Origin: a virus
Strand: one strand, 5' to 3'
Virus record (IMG/VR): IMGVR_UViG_3300042474_000331
Location: 1-33,340 of that record
Length of the DNA: 33,340 nucleotides
Part shown: positions 12,483 through 33,340 of the stretch, piece after piece
Layout: the number at the start of each line of letters is the position of its first letter
How positions within the stretch are numbered: position 1 is the stretch's first letter
Position numbers and translations under genes: made by a program
Notes under the pieces: model-generated
What the model was told of the DNA's origin: nothing
Seen by the model: the letters and a program-made list of their open reading frames with translations, nothing else
The model's database searches: none

Positions 12483-12500
12483 TCGGTGTAGTTTCGGTGA

Positions 12501-20071: not shown

Positions 20072-20233
20072 ATGACAGGATTAAGACACGCCCTCAAAGA
20101 ATACTTTATGGTTCATCAGATAGCTGGTAGCAACCCTATTTTAGCATTCGATAACTTAAAACAACAATACGTTGTTTTTTGGTACTTCAAAAAAAATACT
20201 ATAATTAATCTTGGATATGAAATAATTTTGTAA
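20072..20233 (+). CDS. Hypothetical protein, 53 aa
   Basis: The frame encodes 53 residues beginning MTGLRHALKEYFMVHQIAGS and continuing FDNLKQQYVVFWYFKKN. It begins two bases after the previous stop. It has a mixed helix-strand character with aromatic residues. The last codons overlap the -33 element of the RNA promoter described next. The family is not recognised. Confidence 0.55.
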   Translation: MTGLRHALKEYFMVHQIAGSNPILAFDNLKQQYVVFWYFKKNTIINLGYEIIL

Positions 20234-20257
20234 TGTAAATAATTATTATTATATTTG
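20227..20257 (+). promoter_or_regulatory. Promoter of the structured RNA
   Basis: TTTG (20227-20230), a 19-base spacer and TATATTTG (20250-20257) match the Bacteroidetes promoter consensus at every fixed position. Transcription should start near 20261-20265, exactly where the first RNA hairpin begins. Confidence 0.75.
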
Positions 20258-20260
20258 CCT

Positions 20261-20386
20261 ATCGGATTAACTAACCGATTTAAGAAATACCTAAACATAA
20301 AAATCATTGAGCATTTAGTGATTCGGTGCAAGGAGTTTAGGACTTGCTAGTGTAGTACACAAACCGAATCGTTAAATGCTTTTTTT
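20261..20386 (+). ncRNA. Candidate structured small RNA with three-way junction and intrinsic terminator
   Basis: The transcript would begin with a 5' hairpin (ATCGG 20261-20265 with CCGAT 20275-20279). An 18-pair stem follows: AGCATTTAGTGATTCGGT (20310-20327) with ACCGAATCGTTAAATGCT (20363-20380), all Watson-Crick except two G-U pairs in RNA. Inside it are two hairpins: GCAAG/CTTGC (20328-20332 with 20343-20347; 10-base loop GAGTTTAGGA) and GTGT/ACAC (20350-20353 with 20357-20360; loop AGT). Linkers are 0, 2 and 2 bases, a compact three-way junction. Seven Ts follow the closing stem. It has no coding frame of its own. It could instead be only a terminator plus leader of the downstream replication genes, or part of an origin. 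Confidence 0.7.
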
Positions 20387-20398
20387 ATTGTATTAATT

Positions 20399-20566
20399 AT
20401 GGTAACACTATTAAAAATTAAAAACAAGATTTTATTCTATAAAGATGGAATTGAATTTTATGATGTCGATATTTATAATTATAATATTGATTTATTAAAA
20501 GAAAAAAGTTGGTTTATACCAATAGAAAAATCATTTATCAATTTAATTAAATTTCACAATGTCTAA
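20399..20566 (+). CDS. Hypothetical protein, 55 aa
   Basis: The frame encodes 55 residues beginning MVTLLKIKNKILFYKDGIEF and ending SFINLIKFHNV. It is rich in Ile, Lys, Tyr and Asn, probably a small beta-rich protein. The stop overlaps the initiator start by eight bases (ATGTCTAA), suggesting translational coupling to the replication gene. It begins 12 bases after the T-run of the RNA. The family is not recognised. Confidence 0.55.
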   Translation: MVTLLKIKNKILFYKDGIEFYDVDIYNYNIDLLKEKSWFIPIEKSFINLIKFHNV

Positions 20567-21113
20567 AGATCCTGCAGTTTTATTTTATACCAGCGACTTT
20601 TTAACTGGAACTTTAACATTATCTAATGAACAAAAAGGTAAATATATTACCCTACTTTGCTTACAACATCAAAAAAATTTTCTTACTGAAAATGATATGA
20701 TGATGATATGTGGATCATATGATAAAAGTATATTCGATAAATTCGTAAAAGAAGATGATATTTTCTACAATAAAAGAATGCGAGATGAACATAAAAAACG
20801 TAAAGAATTTAGTAAATCAAGGTCAGAAAATAGACTTAATGGTTTGAAAAACAAGAAGAAAGGAGGTAAAATCATATCTTCATCATATGTTCATCATATG
20901 GAAAATGAAAATGTAAATGTAATTATAGATTATTTTAATACTAATAATTATACTAAAGAAGCAGCTTTGAAATTTTATGAATATTATAAAGTTAATAATT
21001 TTAAAGACAGCAATAATAAAGTTGTTAAAAATTGGAAGCAGAAAGCTCGCTTGATTTGGTTTAAACCTGAAAACGAAATAAAAGATTTAACTAAAACTAA
21101 AATGGTTTACTAA
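20559..21113 (+). CDS. Replication initiator / replisome organiser, DUF1376-like
   Basis: This 184-residue protein has an N-terminal domain (residues about 3-85) starting DPAVLFYTSDFLTGTLTLSN. It resembles the DUF1376 / winged-helix replication domains of phages (D-x-A-x-x-F-Y-x-x-D-F-L pattern). A basic Ser/Lys/Asn-rich linker (about 85-115) follows. The C-terminal region has KFYEYYKVNNF and NWKQKARLIWF, like helicase-loader domains. It directly precedes the primase-helicase and is coupled to it by a one-base overlap. Roles in origin binding and helicase loading are inferred. The DNA encoding its linker carries iteron-like repeats, as in lambda O. Confidence 0.75.
   Translation: MSKDPAVLFYTSDFLTGTLTLSNEQKGKYITLLCLQHQKNFLTENDMMMICGSYDKSIFDKFVKEDDIFYNKRMRDEHKKRKEFSKSRSENRLNGLKNKKKGGKIISSSYVHHMENENVNVIIDYFNTNNYTKEAALKFYEYYKVNNFKDSNNKVVKNWKQKARLIWFKPENEIKDLTKTKMVY
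20869..20901. repeat. Three 11-bp iterons inside the initiator gene, candidate origin
   Basis: Three consecutive 11-base units (starts at 20869, 20880 and 20891) share the core TCATAT; the last two read TCATCATATGT and TCATCATATGG. A further TCATATG lies at 20715. The following 60 bases (20902-20960) are almost pure A/T. Iterons in helical phase next to an AT-rich stretch, within the linker-coding part of an initiator gene, copy the layout of the lambda origin. Confidence 0.45.
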
Positions 21114-22876
21114 TGGAAATCAAAGTAATTAACCTGGCAGACCGTAGCGAATATGTCATACAAGCTAACAAATTAGGAGAAAATATAATGCTTTGCCCTG
21201 TTTGTTCTCACCAAAGAAAAAAGAAAACCGATAAATGTTTTAGCTTCAATCTTACAAAAAATGCAGGAAGGTGCAACCATTGTCAAGTTGTTTTAGTAGA
21301 AAAAAAAGATAAATTTGAGAAACGCACACAAATTGAATATAAACGACCTTTATTTAAAAGTGGCACTAACTATTCACTTGATGCTCAAAAGTTCTTCACA
21401 GCCCGTAAAATTAGCGAAAAAACACTATTAGACTTTAAAGTTTCTGAAGGGATTGAATGGATGCCAAAAAATAAGGCAGAAATTAACACTATTCAATTTA
21501 ATTATTTTAGGAATGGAGAATTAATAAATATTAAATATCGAGGTAAAAGTAAAGATTTTAAATTATTTAAAGATGCTGAATTGATATTTTATAATTTAGA
21601 TTGCACTATTGATAATGAAACTATTATAATTGTTGAGGGTGAAATGGATTGCTTAACAATGGCTGAATCGGGTTATAAAAATTGTATTTCAGTACCCAAT
21701 GGAGCTGGAATTGGCAAAATTAATTTTCAATATTTAGATAACTGCATAGAATCATTTTCTGATAAAACACAATTTGTTCTTGCATTAGATAACGATGGGC
21801 CAGGTATAAATTTACAAAACGAATTAGCTCGAAGATTAGGGTTTGAAAACTGCACTTATGTTAGGTTTAAAGATTGTAAAGATGCTAACGAATGTTTAAT
21901 TAAATATGGTATTCAAGGCATAATTGAAGCCATGTCAGAACGTAAAGAATTCCCGATTGAAGGTGTTTTTAATGCAAATGATATTACTGATGACATTTAT
22001 AATTATTATAATAATGGTTTACCTAAAGGTGATGGTATTGGAATGGCTGAATTTGATATGTTTGTTAAATTTCAACCTGGATACTTAACTACAATTACAG
22101 GAATACCTGGTCATGGTAAATCTGAATTTTTGGACTTTATCTTAACAAGATTAAATATTAGTCATAATTGGAAGATAGCTTTATATTCTCCCGAAAACCA
22201 TCCACTTGAATTACATTTTAGTAAGTTTGCTGAAAAAATAAGTGGTAAAGCATTTGAGGGATTTAATAGAATATCAAGTGATGAATTAAAACAAATGATT
22301 GATTATCATGCTAATAACTTTTATTTTATTAATCCTTCAGAAAACTTTGAATTAGAAAGTATCTTAGCAGCTGTAAAATCTTTAGTAAGGAAAAAAGGAA
22401 TTAAAGCATTTGTTATTGATGCATGGAATAAATTAGATCATAAATATAATGGTAACGAAACTAAATATATAAGTGAGCAACTGGATAAGATAGTTATGTT
22501 TTGTGAAAAAAATAAAGTACATTGTTTTTTAGTGGCTCATCCAACAAAAATAACTAAGGATAAAAATACAGGATTATTTGAGATTCCAAATTTATATTCG
22601 ATAAGTGGTTCTGCTAATTTTTATAACAAGACATCAAATGGTATAACTGTTTATCGTAACTTTGAAACAAATCTAACTGAAGTTTATATACAAAAGGTTA
22701 AATTTAAACATTGGGGACAAACTGGATGCTGCATATTTTCTTGGGATCGTATTAATGGAAGATATTATAAAGGGATGCCAAATTATGATAATTGGATTAA
22801 ATCAAATAAAACTGAAAATAACGAAGAATTTTTAAATCAAGGAATAGTTATAAACAAAGATGAAGCACCTTTTTAA
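21113..22876 (+). CDS. T7 gp4-like primase-helicase
   Basis: This 587-residue bifunctional replication enzyme has three domains. The N-terminal zinc-binding domain has C28-x-x-C31 and C54-x-x-C57. The TOPRIM primase domain has VEGEMDC (E175, D179) and LALDNDGPG (D226, D228). The DnaB-type helicase domain has Walker A GIPGHGKS (330-337) and Walker B FVIDAW (433-438). It should unwind DNA and lay primers at the phage fork. The length fits T7 gp4 and Twinkle-like proteins. The C-terminus is acidic and ends KDEAPF, resembling the SSB tip. No phage DNA polymerase is visible, so host polymerase is probably recruited. Confidence 0.93.
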   Translation: MEIKVINLADRSEYVIQANKLGENIMLCPVCSHQRKKKTDKCFSFNLTKNAGRCNHCQVVLVEKKDKFEKRTQIEYKRPLFKSGTNYSLDAQKFFTARKISEKTLLDFKVSEGIEWMPKNKAEINTIQFNYFRNGELINIKYRGKSKDFKLFKDAELIFYNLDCTIDNETIIIVEGEMDCLTMAESGYKNCISVPNGAGIGKINFQYLDNCIESFSDKTQFVLALDNDGPGINLQNELARRLGFENCTYVRFKDCKDANECLIKYGIQGIIEAMSERKEFPIEGVFNANDITDDIYNYYNNGLPKGDGIGMAEFDMFVKFQPGYLTTITGIPGHGKSEFLDFILTRLNISHNWKIALYSPENHPLELHFSKFAEKISGKAFEGFNRISSDELKQMIDYHANNFYFINPSENFELESILAAVKSLVRKKGIKAFVIDAWNKLDHKYNGNETKYISEQLDKIVMFCEKNKVHCFLVAHPTKITKDKNTGLFEIPNLYSISGSANFYNKTSNGITVYRNFETNLTEVYIQKVKFKHWGQTGCCIFSWDRINGRYYKGMPNYDNWIKSNKTENNEEFLNQGIVINKDEAPF

Positions 22877-31227: not shown

Positions 31228-33340
31228 TTATTTCTTTTTACGTTTTATCCTAGTTTCACCAACCCAAATATGGCGGCACCAAGGAGTTGTTTCAGTTCCG
31301 TTATTATAAAATCCTCCACGAAAATCCCAAGCTGATTCTCCAAACTCGTTGGTAAAAGCATCTATTTGTTCGTAGGTTAATCTTCTTGCTACATTTTTTC
31401 CATCAACAGTTTCTCGACCACTTGTTTCAATCATCATTTGTAAACAGAATTCCCTTGTTGTTGGTAATCTTTTAGGGCCACTTACATCAGGTCTTTTATC
31501 GTATTTATAAACAGTGTAAATTTCGGTATCGTAATCTTCAGTATCTTTATCTAATCCTTTTTGAGTTGGTGTAAATATCCCATCTAAAAAGCTACCTAGT
31601 TTTTTTTCTTTTAACCAAGTTATTTCATTATTTATTTTTTCAATATCTACATTTAATGACTTAGCAAGTTCTTCAGGTTTCGCAAATGGATTACCTTTAA
31701 ATTGATTAAGTATTGCATTTCGTAAATCAGTAACTGATAATTGTAATCTATTGGCTGTATATAATTTTTGTTTCGATAACTCGAATCTTAAAACTTGTTT
31801 TGAATCTTTAAAGTTTACATATTCAAGGTCTATAATTTCGTCATCATCATCTACATCTACAGCATTTGCTTTTACCCATTCAATAAATCTTTTTTCTTTA
31901 TCAGCAGATTGTTGAACTTTTACAACCTCATTATTTATTTCTTCTTGAGCTATTCCTAAGAACGTTAAAGCATCCGCATCACTTAATCCAAACCCTGTTT
32001 TAATCATTATCAAAGCCTGGTCTGCTGTATAATCACCCTTCTTTAACTTGTTGGCTATATTAAAAAGATTTTGTCTTTGTCTGCCTGTTAAGTTTTTAAG
32101 ATGTTCGTTTACTTGTATTTCTTCTTGTATTACAGTTGCACTCGGAGTGCCAATTTCTGCAGCTTCAATCTTTAAACCGTATTTTTCAATAATATAATTC
32201 GTTACGATATTAGGATCTCTAGCATTTAAAGCATTGATAACATTTTGATTTTCTAATGGAAGTTCTTTGCCTATTGGCTGAACTTGTTCTACTTCAAATT
32301 TAATATCTAAACCAGTCTTTAGTTTAAACATTTTATCAATAAACTTATTAAAAGCTACTTGTTCAATTTTAGCATATTCGTTAATAAATAATTCATGAGC
32401 TAAGTCTAATTCGTTACGATCTCCTAAAGTACCCTCAGTTTTGATTTTAAACAACACTCCTGGAACGTTATGTCCTGTGATTATCTTTTGTTGATTACGT
32501 TTATTTAAAGCTTCGTATTGGTCTGCTAATCCTGTAGGAGTTACATTTACAACTTCTGCTCCTTTGCCATCGGGATTAGTAAAACTTAATACTACCTTGC
32601 CAGCATTTTGTGTACCTTGATGTTTTTCTTGGAATCGTTCTTTGATATCTTCTTTAACTTCAGGTGTTAATTTACCACTAAAAAAAGTAATAATATGACC
32701 AGCACTAAATCCATTCTTTACTAAACTATGAAAAAAGTTACTAATCTCAATATCGGTATTAATGTCTAATAGAACGCTTGAATAATCGGGTGAAGGGTAT
32801 AAGCCATCTAATTCATTTAAAGACGGTGTAAAGTCCTTAGAATAGTAAATTGAGGCACCTATAAACCCATCTTTATAAAATGGAAAGTAAGTCTTTTTTA
32901 AATGGTAACTTTTAGCAGTCCAATCTTCACTATACCAAACTCCGCAATTATCTGCACTTAGTCTTATCTTACCCATATCTAAATGGTAAAACTCAATCGG
33001 TTGGCCTATTAAATTTGTAGTTACTTGACATGCAAAACCTCCGTATATAGCCTTGTCGGAATCACATTTTTTTCTTAATTCATACCATGAATCAAATCTA
33101 TTTGCCTTCGCTAAAAATTGTTGAACTTGTGGTAAATCTTGACTAGGTACTATTTTTAATCCGCTAAGATAACGTGCTTTACCTTTTAAAATAGCAGCAT
33201 GCTCAGGATGATTATTGTAAGAATTTAATAATTCTTTTGGGAAGTTATTGTCTTTGCCCCACTTAACAAATTCTCCAGCTGTATCTATTTTATAAGTAGG
33301 AAGTTGGTTAACATCCATCTTAATAGTAATTATGTCATTA
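31228..33340 (-). CDS. Portal protein, long form; N-terminus lies across the circle junction
   Basis: The visible frame encodes 696 residues from MDVNQL and stays open to the window edge. With the circle closed it starts at 150 and is about 711 residues. The portal core has FVKWGKDNNFPKELLNSYNN, GKARYLSGLKIV, NGFSAGHIITFFSGKL and a GTLGDRNELDLAHELFINEY helix near the middle, typical of phage portals. The last 200 residues are an extra domain (REFCLQMMIETSG, RRLTYEQIDAFTNEFG, RGGFYNNG, WCRHIWVGE) that I associate with a capsid-protein C-terminal extension in Bacteroidetes phages. The protein is much longer than the common 400-550. Confidence 0.85.
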   Translation of the reverse strand, partial: NDIITIKMDVNQLPTYKIDTAGEFVKWGKDNNFPKELLNSYNNHPEHAAILKGKARYLSGLKIVPSQDLPQVQQFLAKANRFDSWYELRKKCDSDKAIYGGFACQVTTNLIGQPIEFYHLDMGKIRLSADNCGVWYSEDWTAKSYHLKKTYFPFYKDGFIGASIYYSKDFTPSLNELDGLYPSPDYSSVLLDINTDIEISNFFHSLVKNGFSAGHIITFFSGKLTPEVKEDIKERFQEKHQGTQNAGKVVLSFTNPDGKGAEVVNVTPTGLADQYEALNKRNQQKIITGHNVPGVLFKIKTEGTLGDRNELDLAHELFINEYAKIEQVAFNKFIDKMFKLKTGLDIKFEVEQVQPIGKELPLENQNVINALNARDPNIVTNYIIEKYGLKIEAAEIGTPSATVIQEEIQVNEHLKNLTGRQRQNLFNIANKLKKGDYTADQALIMIKTGFGLSDADALTFLGIAQEEINNEVVKVQQSADKEKRFIEWVKANAVDVDDDDEIIDLEYVNFKDSKQVLRFELSKQKLYTANRLQLSVTDLRNAILNQFKGNPFAKPEELAKSLNVDIEKINNEITWLKEKKLGSFLDGIFTPTQKGLDKDTEDYDTEIYTVYKYDKRPDVSGPKRLPTTREFCLQMMIETSGRETVDGKNVARRLTYEQIDAFTNEFGESAWDFRGGFYNNGTETTPWCRHIWVGETRIKRKKK
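33214..33340. repeat. Right copy of 127-bp terminal direct repeat
   Basis: These bases are identical to positions 1-127. The repeat lies wholly inside the portal frame, and the frame runs through it without a break, which supports true circularity of the assembly. Confidence 0.95.

Follow-up and report, generated by a model that had tools for sequence, protein, structure and literature searches.

In the pT181-type attenuator of a plasmid replication gene, regulation starts with kissing hairpins and involves an antiterminator that sequesters the terminator's 5′ arm (PMC4878617). The CI RNA of satellite phage P4 belongs to the untranslated leader of the phage replication genes, which shows premature termination and contains internally complementary segments; it is processed out of this leader and works in lysogeny (PMC4825925). 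IsrK of Gifsy-1 combines a promoter, a short terminated RNA and partial read-through into the operon (PMC4825925). Here we describe a locus at positions 20227 to 20386 of the metagenomic IMG/VR virus record IMGVR_UViG_3300042474_000331 (33,340 bases; the whole stretch is referred to as the window), which seems to resemble these leaders functionally and is probably an undescribed RNA switch limiting the expression of DNA-copying genes. A literature search in openly licensed papers retrieved no report of such an RNA.

As in pT181, the putative leader carries an intrinsic terminator ahead of a replication gene, a likeness that is one of sequence only. The pT181 partner, however, is a separate antisense RNA, whereas here the complementary loops lie within one transcript. 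With P4 CI it shares the position before replication genes and the internally complementary segments, but in this leader the complement lies inside the intrinsic terminator. The comparison with IsrK concerns layout alone (promoter, short terminated RNA, read-through); IsrK itself activates translation of the read-through messenger RNA in trans. We do not claim membership of either the pT181 or the P4 type, because no antisense RNA was found, the lysogenic setting is missing and there is no match in Rfam.

The promoter and the predicted RNA consist of the following parts (nt, nucleotides; bp, base pairs):

20227..20257, plus strand: Bacteroidota promoter, read directly, with the −33 element TTTG (20227-20230), a 19-nt spacer and the −7 element TATATTTG (20250-20257)
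20261..20279, plus strand: stem 1, ATCGG/CCGAT (20261-20265 with 20275-20279), loop ATTAACTAA, 100 % paired in 21 sequences
20270..20273, plus strand: ACTA within the loop of stem 1; it is complementary to TAGT (20353-20356) of the hairpin 2 loop (loop-loop contact)
20290..20296, plus strand: K, CCTAAAC, 5′ strand of a pseudoknot, pairing with K′ at 20335-20341
20302..20323, plus strand: alternative (antiterminator) hairpin AATCATTGA/TTAGTGATT, formed between the linker and the terminator's 5′ arm and predicted for the still short RNA
20310..20380, plus strand: terminator stem of 18 pairs (20310-20327 with 20363-20380) around both inner hairpins, 98.9 % of cells paired
20328..20347, plus strand: hairpin 1, GCAAG/CTTGC (20328-20332/20343-20347), with K′ (GTTTAGG, 20335-20341) in its loop, from the comparison of 21 sequences
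20350..20360, plus strand: hairpin 2, GTG/CAC (20350-20352/20358-20360), whose loop TAGTA touches the stem 1 loop, from the same comparison
20380..20386, plus strand: T-run of seven T, read directly, at which the terminated RNA is predicted to end

The original prediction, made from the window's letters, had drawn a 5′ hairpin, an 18-pair stem with two G-U pairs around two perfect hairpins (linkers of 0, 2 and 2 bases) and seven Ts behind the stem. All these parts were recovered where they had been placed. The 5′ hairpin corresponds to the 5-pair stem 1 at the expected transcript start (20261), and the first T of the run (20380) doubles as the last base of the terminator stem. The K-K′ pseudoknot, the contact between the loops of stem 1 and hairpin 2 and the alternative 9-bp hairpin had been overlooked. 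The predicted fold of the segment reached −38.9 kcal/mol compared with a shuffle mean of −26.1 (z −3.6) and was better than all of 200 dinucleotide shuffles.

Homologues of this RNA, here called class I, are present in about 30 viral contigs. They were gathered by a protein search with the primase combined with a pattern for the first hairpin, and 21 distinct sequences were compared. Standard pairs make up 99.2 % over the 42 pairs, 29 of which show double changes. The covariation score was 0.566 against 0.174 in shuffles, with none of 500 shuffles as good, and sliding the partners by 1-3 columns as a control reduced pairing to 28-42 %. Stem covariation, one of the checks by which the original prediction was to stand or fall, is strongly positive, with 15 of the 18 terminator pairs doubly changed. 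In stem 1 a single pair shows a G-C/A-U double change. K-K′ is 100 % paired, although five of its seven pairs are doubly changed and up to four pair types occur per position. The variable pair of the loop-loop contact is G-C in 16 sequences and U-A in five, and is never unpaired. This comparison confirms a real, conserved and structured RNA with a predicted promoter and terminator of its own.

A covariance model of class I (R1), comprising stem 1, K, the terminator stem with the K′ hairpin and the second hairpin, and the T-run, scored 124.8 bits on the window, which was part of its training set. R1 found a single strong class I copy in each of 12 phage records, and a repeated intraphage site similar to nut or put was rejected on this ground. 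In the family of G013 (Flavobacterium terrigena), of which 399 genomes were scanned, it gave one weak match of 40 bits; as this match has no leader features, an RNA of host genomes was rejected too. Pattern matches in genome contigs reached at most 29 bits and were short stretches starting at the first hairpin.

The promoter consensus for Bacteroidota was taken from PMC6847099 and PMC9723704, and TTTG, the 19-nt spacer and TATATTTG are all present as originally described. The −7 element was found in 29 of 30 class I loci. Because the flavobacterial −7 box occupies positions −12 to −5 (PMC9723704), the transcript is expected to begin at about 20261/20262, where stem 1 starts. A second −7-like element, TAATTTTG (20223-20230), overlaps the −33 element and, if used, would give the same RNA with about 27 nt more at the 5′ end. 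We infer a flavobacterial host from the type of promoter and the isolate relatives. The site does lie between the recombination and replication blocks, and the segment holds no plausible gene, as had been stated, except for the last 7 nt of an upstream open reading frame (ORF) of 53 amino acids (20072-20233), which overlap the −33 element.

Downstream of the T-run the replication operon begins with these genes:

20399..20566, plus strand: first gene of the operon, 55 amino acids, no family match, ATG 12 nt past the T-run
20559..21113, plus strand: primosomal-type replication protein, 184 amino acids (phrog_9327, E 8.7e-6)
21113..22876, plus strand: DNA primase/helicase, 587 amino acids (phrog_239, E 2e-85), the gene through which related phages were found

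In the 30 class I loci the RNA precedes a gene group, mostly one for replication and often with primosomal, primase, helicase or recombination proteins. The first genes vary among loci and include several kinds of small ORFs, a helicase and a primosomal-like protein. Where readable, the first ATG is usually 10-15 nt past the T-run. L098 and L110 have their nearest long ORF with an ATG at +244, yet a GTG lies close behind the T-run. No −7 promoter element was found within the RNA or over the next 60 nt in any of the 30 loci, and operon transcripts therefore have to pass through the terminator. We read the RNA as an operon leader because of the mostly constant ATG distance, the varied first genes and the lack of an intervening promoter. 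Of the original idea of a free-standing gene with its own promoter and terminator, the two signals are borne out and the free-standing gene is not, since the homologues are leaders of the downstream operon.

With moderate confidence, we propose that the RNA is the 5′ leader of a phage replication operon, and that its terminator, folded with the help of K-K′, is partly or conditionally read through, i.e. is an attenuator. This reading is based on the promoter meeting the terminator within 125 nt and on the operon starting only 12 nt further on. The host RNA polymerase would start at about 20261 and produce a compact RNA within 125 nt, folded during its emergence by K-K′ and by the contact between the stem 1 and hairpin 2 loops. 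The intrinsic terminator would end most transcripts as an RNA of about 125 nt, and a constant fraction, or one regulated perhaps by some factor acting in trans, would read through into the genes for the primosomal protein and the primase/helicase. K-K′ might favour either termination or read-through. Alternatively, base pairing between the linker and the 5′ arm of the terminator would create a competing antiterminator, so that the leader is probably able to switch.

Such switching of the class I leader is plausible because the match between linker and arm beats permuted linkers (1/5000 with 14 representatives and 0/2000 with all 21, a test that kinship can inflate) and because of the order in which RNAfold forms the hairpins on growing 3′ ends. 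The alternative hairpin (9 bp in the window, 20302-20310/20315-20323) appears first, then K-K′ around it, and then the terminator. Several observations weigh on the other side. The antiterminator pairing is weak in 4 of the 21 members (L047, L091, L094 and L127), none was seen in subclass IIa of the simpler relatives described below, and an 18-pair stem followed by seven Ts may terminate too well for much read-through.

Phages with a related primase that lack the class I RNA mostly carry a simpler RNA of the same plan and a different sequence in the same place (class II). In it, a promoter and a 5′ hairpin with K in its loop are followed by a linker and by a terminator stem enclosing a hairpin whose loop K′ complements K over 6-9 bp; the T-run comes next, with an ATG a short way behind it. 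In subclass IIa (13 sequences), 99.3 % are paired and 11 of 21 pairs are doubly changed. A promoter-anchored search with shuffle controls replaced earlier descriptors that had given many chance matches; in 23 records it returned 27 matches scoring at least 65 compared with 2 in shuffled sequences, and 16 compared with 0 at a score of at least 70. A few of the matches between 65 and 70 are probably due to chance or come from the strand opposite a real one. Two or three modules that differ in K were found in several phages (CTCTAAC, GGTCTCA and GTAGAAG in record G004; ACCGCCAAG, TGTGCG and CTGGAAG in G027), and class I phages including L086, L090 and L100 also contain class II modules. Within one phage, K sequences of different modules cross-pair over at most 1-4 bp. 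An ACATT-like motif occurs in many of the linkers of both classes (71 of 121 matches, in a set that includes chance matches and has no control), which hints at a common descent of classes I and II.

When close relatives were compared in non-overlapping pairs, a change was seen in 10 of 45 cases for K pairs and in 12 of 237 for pairs of other helices (p 6e-4); the corresponding figures in subclass IIa are 5 of 21 and 1 of 42 (p 0.013). The excess shows only at short distances, because over all sequence pairs the variability of K (0.45) does not exceed that of hairpins 1 and 2 (0.48). The fast change of K fits selection for new self-specific loop pairs, but the counts are low and relaxed constraint could have the same effect.

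Among the alternatives to an attenuated leader, the one that survives best, albeit as an unlikely one, is that the terminated RNA of about 125 nt targets nascent leaders of the same kind in trans through K/K′ and thereby restrains either the operon or a relative that superinfects. It can be likened to P4 CI RNA or to plasmid antisense RNA, except that a single transcript carries both complementary parts. Such action would agree with the K pairs changing most often between close relatives and always with compensation, with the two or three poorly cross-pairing modules per phage, and with a location next to phage replication genes, which P4 shares (PMC4825925). On the other hand, K-K′ pairing in the same molecule should outcompete pairing in trans, the rapid change of K could again reflect relaxed constraint, and a virulent lifestyle is described for phages that carry the simpler form (PMC7077304), hence lysogenic immunity would not be its role. 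Lysogenic immunity was also rejected for the locus in general, as no tyrosine integrase was found in the window and nine related, possibly incomplete, records and the relatives are described as virulent. A broader and equally doubtful idea is that flavobacterial phages use a class of self-specific RNA switches, in which several early-operon leaders control their terminators by fast-evolving complementary loops and the short RNA recognises only leaders that carry an identical loop pair. If true, this would provide several orthogonal RNA-only controls per phage and a recognition between co-infecting phages.

We consider it still less likely that the RNA is a free-standing small RNA with host or phage targets or a protein partner, the operon being expressed by leaky read-through only. 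Its own promoter and terminator, the very stable fold and a conserved A-rich linker would suit such a role. The nearly fixed spacing of 10-15 nt to the operon ATG despite differing first genes speaks against it, as do the absence of a conserved seed and the fact that several operon heads show this plan in RNAs of unrelated sequence. The host-directed small RNA that was originally considered fares no better, at least in a form with a conserved seed, as K-K′ is the fastest-changing helix and the conserved unpaired bases are mainly those of the A-rich linker. Copy control by an opposite-strand antisense RNA, also considered there, found no support, since no opposite-strand promoter of the form CAAANNTA-N15-25-CAAA was detected in 30 loci, although a weak promoter without the −33 element would escape this search. 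That the element is just a strong terminator for the upstream operon, with promoter and contacts incidental, is highly improbable: the upstream gene does end at 20233, within the promoter, but a conserved promoter, covarying long-range contacts and a fixed distance to the next gene would be superfluous for a plain terminator.

The original statement that no named RNA family clearly fits holds, as the search of Rfam 15, including 6S and Flavo-1, gave no match reaching the gathering threshold for the window and 13 related loci. The only sub-threshold match in the segment was the S15-Flavobacteria leader RF03161 (18.3 bits, E 5.2), and membership was rejected given the gathering score of 46.5. 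The likeness comes mostly from the promoter and an AT-rich stretch, and this locus, unlike that family, has no S15 gene directly downstream.

The RNA class, which heads replication operons in many flavobacterial phages including cultured isolates, offers a testable mechanism for the metering of replication genes in Bacteroidota phages, whose gene control is poorly known. Natural terminators with interchangeable loop pairs also resemble the orthogonal attenuators built by hand by synthetic biologists (PMC3753616). The isolates with class II RNA are Flavobacterium phages sniff9-2 and 11b, Cellulophaga phage phi10:1 and Tenacibaculum phage JQ, and the class is therefore open to laboratory testing.

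In these cultured phages the class II leaders are unannotated and situated in gaps ahead of gene groups, at 12497 and about 13550 in sniff9-2 (L282), 33628 in 11b (L324), 10246 in phi10:1 (L283) and 35915 in JQ (L284). The ATG of the replication gene group lies some 40-50 nt past the T-run in phi10:1, sniff9-2 and JQ. A possible extra hairpin, GGTAATC...AACC, not seen in class I, is located between the T-run and the ATG in phi10:1 (L279) and sniff9-2 (L278). In record G004, two modules on the minus strand (L292, 13268 and 17158) and the class I copy (31808-31934) each stand before a different gene, and their three K sequences are unrelated to one another. Finally, an RNA of class II type (L066, 443-546) precedes a homologue of the MKTKLIITN... 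gene, while the homologue in L087 sits behind a class I RNA instead, as if leaders were swapped as modules.
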